NCBI RefSeq assembly: GCF_000189635.1
Contig: NW_002476426.1
Coordinates: forward strand, 744,001-808,000
Origin: Tetrahymena thermophila SB210
Lineage: Eukaryota > Ciliophora > Oligohymenophorea > Hymenostomatida > Tetrahymenidae
Direction of reading: 5' to 3'
Length of the DNA: 64,000 bases
The position numbers and the translations under genes are program-made. Numbering within the stretch: position 1 is the first letter of the stretch; every line of letters begins with the position of its first letter. Shown here in pieces: positions 26,108 through 28,152 of the stretch. The notes beneath the pieces were generated by a model. It was not told where the DNA came from and did not search any database. It worked only from the letters and a program-made list of their open reading frames with translations.

Positions 26108-28152
26108 ATGGACGTAGAATTTAAATACGACTTTTTCGTCATTGGTGGTGGTTCTGGAGGTTTAGCAGCTGCTAAGGAAGCTGCTTCCTTTGGAGCAAGA
26201 GTAGCTGTGGCTGACTTTGTCAAGCCTTCTCCTGTTGGCACAAAATGGGGTTTAGGAGGTAATAAATAAATCAATTATATGTTTAGCATATTTAATATCT
26301 CAGCTATTTAAGACAATAGTTGATAAACTTGAGTTTTACATAAGCCATAGCTAAAAATTTATATTAATATTTATTATAGGTACTTGTGTTAATGTCGGTT
26401 GTATTCCTAAGAAGCTTATGCACTTTGCCGCCTCATACGGTGAAAGTCATGAAGCTTAAAAGAATATGGGTTGGACTGAAATCAAGGAAAAAAACAAACA
26501 TGAATGGTAACCTATGGTTGAAAGGGTTTAAGCTCATATCAAGAAATTGAATTGGGGTTACAAGGTTGAACTCGCTGAAAAGGAAGTCAAGTACTACAAT
26601 AGCTTGGCTAGTATAGTAGGCAAGAATACAATTGAAGTAATAAACATTAATAAATATATTGTTTTGTTTAAAATCGTTTCTCTCCTCTATTTTTTTTATT
26701 TATGTAAGAGATGCTATTTTTATATAAAAGTATAAAGAGGGAAATAATGTGTTTATTAATCATTTACGTATTTTTTAATCAATTTTTTTTAATATTTAGC
26801 TTACTAACAGAAAGGGAGAAAAGGAATAAGTTACTGCTAAGTACATTTTGATTGCTGTTGGTGGTAGACCAACATTCTTAGATATTCCTAATACTGAAAA
26901 GTTAGTCATTACTTCTGATGATATCTTTTCTATGTAAAACCCTCCTGGAAAAACATTAGTCGTTGGTGCTTCCTATATAGCCTTAGAATGTGCAGGTTTC
27001 TTAGCTGGTTTTGGTTATGACGTTACTGTCATGGTTAGATCAATTCTCTTAAGAGGTTTTGACTAAGTAATTTATTAATCATTTACATTTTATTTGCATT
27101 AAAATTGAAAAATGATTATTGAATCTTATAAATAAATAAATTACTTACTTTAAAATTTTGAAAATTTTAGGAAATTGCTGAAAAAATTGGTGAATACATG
27201 GCAAGACACGGAACCAAATTCATCCGTGGTACTGTACCTCACCATATTGAAGCTACTCCTGATGGCAGAAGACGTGTAGTTTGGAAATCTCCAGTAGAAG
27301 GTTAGGGAGATGTTGAAGAAATTTTCGACACTGTTATGCTAGCAATTGGAAGAACATCTGATACCAAGAATATCGGTGTAGAGACTATGGGTATTAAAAC
27401 AAAGCCCAATGGAAAAATTATTGCTAACGATGACGATGTATATTTTTATTATAAGTTTATTCTTTACTTGATGTTAATAATAAATTTGTTCAAATTAATT
27501 ATTTTAACATAATTTTTATACACTTAATACAAATATATTGAATTTTTGTTAAAATTTATATAGACCACTAATGTTGAAAATATTTTCGCTATTGGTGATT
27601 GTGTAGACAAGAGACCAGAATTGACTCCTACTGCTATTAAGGCTGGAAGACTTTTAGCTCGTAGATTGTTCAATGGTGACACTAAACTCATGGATTACAA
27701 CTCCATTCCAACTACTGTTTTCACTCCTATTGAATATGGTACCATTGGTTTATCTGAAGAAGATGCCAAGACTAAATATGGAGAAGATAACATTAAAGTT
27801 TATTACTCAATTTTCACTCCTCTTGATTGGTCATACTCTGACCATAAGCATGATGACAAGGGTCACGCCAAGTTGATTGTCAATAAGGCTGATGACGAGC
27901 GTGTCGTTGGTTTCCATTATCTTGGTCCTCATGCAGGTGAAGTTACATAAGGTTTTGCTATTGCCTTCAAGTTTAAGGCAACTAAAGCTAACTTTGATGA
28001 TGTCGTTGGTATTCATCCTACATATGCTGAAGTAATTAAATTTTTTTTTTTACATTTAAATTAAATAATTTATAATTATTATTAAGGAATTCACAACTTT
28101 GAAGAATGTCAAAGGAGAGGGTGAAGCCTAAGAATCAGGCTGCTGAGGTTGA
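26108..28152 (+). CDS. TXNRD: Thioredoxin reductase, selenocysteine-containing
   Basis: There are six exons: 26108-26258, 26380-26636, 26800-27066, 27171-27437, 27564-28031 and 28087-28152. They sum to 492 codons, so 491 aa including selenocysteine, close to animal thioredoxin reductase 1. The enzyme passes electrons from NADPH through FAD and a disulfide to a C-terminal Cys-Sec pair, which reduces thioredoxin. The FAD-binding motif [15 protein letters not shown] is followed by the redox-active CVNVGC at about residues 53-58. AVGGRP and [10 protein letters not shown] lie in the nucleotide-binding region, and FAIGDC is the second FAD motif. The dimerisation domain includes [14 protein letters not shown] and GVHPTYAE-like GIHPTYAE. 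The last codons read GGC TGC TGA GGT TGA, that is Gly-Cys-Sec-Gly-stop. Conventional translation would stop at 28144 and lose the active selenium. Confidence 0.96.
28144..28146 (+). other. Selenocysteine UGA codon
   Basis: This TGA is the penultimate sense codon in a Gly-Cys-TGA-Gly-TGA end. GCUG is the diagnostic C-terminus of animal-type thioredoxin reductases. It is recoded although UGA is the only stop codon used by every other gene in the window. Confidence 0.92.

Follow-up and report, generated by a model that had tools for sequence, protein, structure and literature searches.

A thioredoxin reductase gene ending in two UGA codons

The window analysed here is a stretch of 64,000 nucleotides (contig C122, positions 744001-808000) from the Tetrahymena thermophila assembly of 101 Mb in 445 contigs. 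On its plus strand, positions 26108-28152 hold the gene TTHERM_00047660, which comprises six exons and gives a spliced product of 491 residues, selenocysteine (Sec) included. The exons were placed by eye from the ATG at 26108, using GT donors and AG acceptors, and they join into a single frame. Exon 1 (26108..26258) carries the start codon and the FAD-binding GGGSGG motif within the Pfam domain Pyr_redox_2, and exon 2 (26380..26636) the N-terminal redox motif CVNVGC, located by alignment with thioredoxin reductase 1 (TrxR1). Exons 3 (26800..27066) and 4 (27171..27437) follow from the spliced translation, and exon 5 (27564..28031) encodes most of the dimerisation domain recognized by Pfam.

The last exon (28087..28152), whose acceptor AG lies at 28085-28086, begins Glu-Phe-Thr-Thr and ends ...E-A-TAA(Q)-E-S-G-C-TGA-G-TGA. 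Its open reading frame and spliced translation agree to the base with the exon coordinates given in the original prediction, and bear out the Gly-Cys-TGA-Gly-TGA ending proposed there: a first UGA at 28144-28146, a GGT glycine codon at 28147-28149 and a second UGA at 28150-28152, where the alignment with TrxR1 places the end of the protein.

The spliced frame contains nine TAA or TAG codons (8 TAA, 1 TAG) and no CAA or CAG, and in the alignment, read by eye, three of the nine stand opposite glutamine in mammalian TrxR1. TGA occurs only twice, both times at the terminus. Every other gene in the window had likewise been claimed to end at TGA and to write glutamine as TAA or TAG, a generalization that our data sample only in part. 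When nine other open reading frames were scanned against Pfam under code 6, two were matched, an ABC transporter (45858-48464) and a DUSP (36198-37718), and in-frame TAA/TAG codons are present in both (41 and 33, respectively).

The product contains Pyr_redox_2 and Pyr_redox_dim. Its best matches among solved structures are mammalian TrxR1 (E 1e-176), covering residues 4-491 of a query in which cysteine was typed at the Sec position, and the alignment takes in the CVNVGC centre as well as the C-terminal tail. The Pyr_redox_2 and dimerisation domains, the N-terminal CVNVGC and the in-frame C-terminal GC-UGA-G are those of a high-Mr thioredoxin reductase, and we classify the product as a high-molecular-weight, animal-type enzyme with a putative role in NADPH-dependent thioredoxin reduction. 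Comparison of the C-terminus with known reductases had been suggested as a check on the animal-type GCUG ending, and the match to TrxR1 runs through the final residue, 491. Because the protein matches TrxR1 to its last residue, chance is excluded. The likeness to mammalian TrxR1 (TXNRD1), whose solved chains have either Cys or Sec at the Sec position, thus extends over the domains, the redox centre and the tail to its end. The T. thermophila gene differs in that UGA is its sole available stop and glutamine is written TAA/TAG.

A SECIS element, a selenocysteine pathway and paralogues

Within the 3′ UTR, the fold of positions 28346..28389 on the plus strand shows a SECIS core of the type ATGA...AA...TGA. 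We take this core, which has helix II and a small helix at the apex, to be form-2-like. The core was detected by a pattern designed around known SECIS features (ATGA, AA in the loop, TGA and a closing helix II), which matched four times in total over both strands of the 64 kb, most strongly at 28346-28389, with -14.5 kcal/mol vs -5.4 kcal/mol for the next match. It lies inside the region 28322..28414, which reproduces letter for letter the 93-base SECIS given for TTHERM_00047660 in Table 2 of Coyne et al. 2008 (PMC2612030) and occurs once on the plus strand of the window. Of the six SECIS strings printed there for T. thermophila, five are found letter for letter in the assembly and the sixth at 98%, from which we conclude that the genome is that of T. 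thermophila; our pattern detects 5/6 of the published elements, missing that of SPS2. The element was also missed by Rfam, which at gathering scores reported no SECIS, and nothing else, in the whole window, and within 28000-28700 gave five matches up to E 10, none of them SECIS and all far below the family gathering scores.

The genome also encodes tRNA-Sec(UCA), recognized by its covariance model at 68.6 bits (gathering score 47) and carrying the anticodon loop CUUCAAA; nine further matches to the model all fall below the family cut-off. ARAGORN, run with the bacterial code, made no call in the window and none at this tRNA-Sec locus (L001). SepSecS is matched at 426.7 bits and the eEFSec-type domain euk_SelB_III at 104.1 bits, and SPS2 has an in-frame UGA of its own (DLKG-UGA-GCKVP). 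Our search of the machinery covered these four components, and within that scope the genome combines tRNA-Sec with Sec machinery genes, as is expected where a eukaryotic selenoprotein gene is present.

Two paralogues, TTHERM_00486500 and TTHERM_00823430, share the layout Cys-UGA-one codon-UGA, each with a published SECIS in the 3′ UTR according to the same Table 2. All three Sec thioredoxin reductase genes have exactly one codon between the Sec UGA and the stop UGA, although the two paralogues end Ser-Cys-UGA-Ala-UGA (tail SCUA) whereas TTHERM_00047660 has the tail GCUG. The Ser-Cys-Sec-Ala tails are read at locus L020 and on the reverse complement of L023, where the window gene has Gly-Cys-Sec-Gly. 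Two other paralogues (contigs C65 and C341, loci L014 and L012) end WLCCG-UGA, with cysteine where the window gene has its first UGA, so Sec and Cys forms of the enzyme coexist in this genome. The in-frame UGA therefore falls where homologues have Sec or Cys. The sixth gene of the set, a paralogue on C423 (L025), shows no C-terminal Cys pair in the frames read, and a later exon is possible there.

Selenocysteine as the probable reading of the first UGA

On the evidence of sequence and homology, no other reading of UGA 28144 comes near selenocysteine in strength. We put at about 0.96 the probability that TTHERM_00047660 undergoes SECIS-directed Sec insertion at 28144-28146 and terminates at the second UGA, giving a thioredoxin reductase with a Gly-Cys-Sec-Gly tail. 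The assignment of Sec to UGA 28144 and of stop to UGA 28150 had been made in the original prediction, and it is supported by the SECIS, tRNA-Sec(UCA), the machinery genes, two Sec and two Cys paralogues, and the annotation printed in 2008. The reading frame, the splice-site consensus, the C-terminal homology, the SECIS, the machinery genes and the Sec and Cys paralogues are observed, and from them Sec insertion itself at UGA 28144 and the activity of the enzyme are predicted.

Two other decodings of the first UGA have to be weighed. It could be an ordinary stop, with the protein ending Gly-Cys, since UGA is the usual stop of the Tetrahymena code and Rfam gave no SECIS match in the window or in 28000-28700. 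Against this stand the SECIS, tRNA-Sec and machinery genes, the in-frame Gly and stop that follow UGA 28144 as in TrxR1, and the two paralogues with Cys-Cys-Gly at the same place, and we regard an ordinary stop as very improbable. Partial termination is normal at Sec codons, so a truncated thioredoxin reductase is likely as a side product. Alternatively, a near-cognate tRNA could read UGA 28144 as one of the standard amino acids, Cys or Trp. UGA was reportedly found by Swart in 2016 to be reassigned in other ciliates, which lends this some support, and the Cys paralogues suggest that cysteine could work at this position. However, the SECIS and most of the Sec pathway would then be needless, and UGA terminates TTHERM_00047660 and the paralogues read; we find such decoding scarcely credible.

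For selenocysteine at the first UGA, the mechanism we propose is that the SECIS in the 3′ UTR would recruit the Sec elongation factor and the Sec-tRNA(UCA) that it carries to the ribosome, and UGA 28144-28146 would be read as Sec because of this recruitment. One more codon would be translated and termination would follow at the second UGA. In the mature enzyme, the Gly-Cys-Sec-Gly redox tail would accept electrons from the redox centre Cys-Val-Asn-Val-Gly-Cys in the partner subunit. This electron path, from CVNVGC to the tail of the partner, is established for mammalian TrxR1.

The use of UGA as both stop and Sec codon is normal wherever selenoproteins exist. What is special in T. thermophila is that no stop other than UGA is available, and this too is in print. 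In the sections of Coyne et al. 2008 (PMC2612030) available to us, UGA is described as the sole codon for termination in Tetrahymena, with a dedicated tRNA that decodes it as Sec, and TTHERM_00047660 is listed among six putative selenoproteins with an updated gene model. Its ESTs number 164 RCH, 11 STV, 5 CNJ, 1 HVM, 1 TSA and 1 MIN, the most for any T. thermophila Sec thioredoxin reductase gene in Table 2 of that paper. According to the accessible text of a 2020 study (PMC7409322), which refers to earlier reports, every one of the 64 codons can specify an amino acid in T. thermophila; in a figure legend of PMC7788932 the gene is called GLR2. Our locus is the published TTHERM_00047660, with an identical 93-base SECIS and the same gene type and UGA reading, and as far as those sections go the coding reading does not differ. 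Since the gene is listed and the UGA principle printed in these sources (PMC2612030, PMC7409322), the predicted reading is right and was already known, having been published in 2008. The literature searched, to the extent that its text was accessible, yielded no peptide or 75Se reports on the product. TTHERM_00047660 is nevertheless a clear-cut example of a codon that takes on two meanings within six bases where the sole stop is also the Sec codon, and what could still matter is the means by which the two UGAs are distinguished.

A hairpin beyond the stop codon

A hairpin at 28157..28185 on the plus strand begins 10 nt past the Sec UGA and 4 nt past the stop. As a stable stem-loop just downstream of a Sec UGA it is a candidate selenocysteine redefinition element, singled out by its fold energy, by the scan of the window and by its single occurrence in the genome. 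For the stretch 28153-28187 the fold energy is -18.0 kcal/mol (z -4.76), a value that none of 200 shuffles reached, and the most stable of the 63,966 stretches of 35 nt folded across the window (both strands, every second position) is one over the hairpin. Longer stretches weaken the case: 28147-28215 reaches a z of only -2.65, with 3/200 shuffles as good, and in a scan of 70-nt windows nine of 25,572 are at least as stable as 28147-28216. Of these nine, five have their first base 6 to 31 nt further upstream and take in the whole hairpin; another three fall in the coding sequence around 26150, and the ninth begins at 28271.

We compared the 70 nt that follow the Sec UGA in five selenoprotein genes (SPS2 aside, and with the two GPx stretches taken as unspliced DNA). 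TTHERM_00047660 folds at -25.1 kcal/mol vs -6.5, -6.8, -8.8 and -11.6 kcal/mol for the other four, the first two values being those of the Sec paralogues TTHERM_00486500 and TTHERM_00823430. A strong hairpin is present in one of the five genes, and we rejected it as a general feature of Tetrahymena. A genome search with 133 bases spanning the hairpin returned no match but the query stretch, and relatives of the protein sought in the genome-contig collection numbered none.

The base composition after the first UGA also bears on the possibility that both UGAs are recodable, producing a minor form longer by 26 residues that would end at an in-frame UGA at 28228. The frame is open up to 28228, a single SECIS lies downstream of both UGAs, and GC content is 53% in 28147-28206 vs 27% in 28207-28320 and 19% in 28415-28800. 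Yet with a single stop in the code a frame easily stays open over such a length, the hairpin explains much of the GC in 28147-28206, TrxR1 ends at Gly, and in the two Sec paralogues the 70 nt that follow the Sec UGA have a GC content of only 20% and 33%. Such an extended minor form is, in our judgement, highly unlikely.

Redefinition elements are known from SELENON and SELENOT, where they lie inside the coding region. The available text of PMC8704476 describes them as RNA structures downstream of the Sec UGA, found through phylogenetic conservation, the one in SELENON having been tested by mutation. The hairpin at 28157-28185 resembles these elements in its position downstream of a Sec UGA but sits beyond the stop codon, and as a candidate it comes from one genome. 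We tentatively propose, as a rather doubtful idea, that it is a ciliate selenocysteine redefinition element beyond the stop codon, favouring Sec at the first UGA and melted by the second. With the ribosome decoding the first UGA, the hairpin would stand at the point where mRNA enters and would favour Sec insertion; six bases later, at the second UGA, it would be partly drawn in and melted, so that normal termination could take place there. If true, this would let TTHERM_00047660 tell the first UGA from the second, at a distance of six bases, in a code that has one stop. No description of a hairpin after the stop of this gene was found in the accessible text of the literature searched, Coyne et al. 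2008 (PMC2612030) included. Since three thioredoxin reductase genes share the arrangement Cys-UGA-codon-UGA and only TTHERM_00047660 has a strong hairpin, they form a natural test set.

In-frame UGA codons in the GPx genes

The status of the glutathione peroxidase (GPx) genes differs between sources. In its accessible text, PMC7409322 accepts one Sec GPx vs two in the list of Coyne et al., reports that no SECIS accompanies the Sec-containing GPx genes of ciliates, terms the pattern of SECIS and Sec in ciliate GPx mysterious, and takes the thioredoxin reductase genes as correct by assumption. In the assembly, both GPx genes of that list show an in-frame NVACK-UGA-GL upstream of the published SECIS (L039, position 1384; reverse complement of L037, position 1391).
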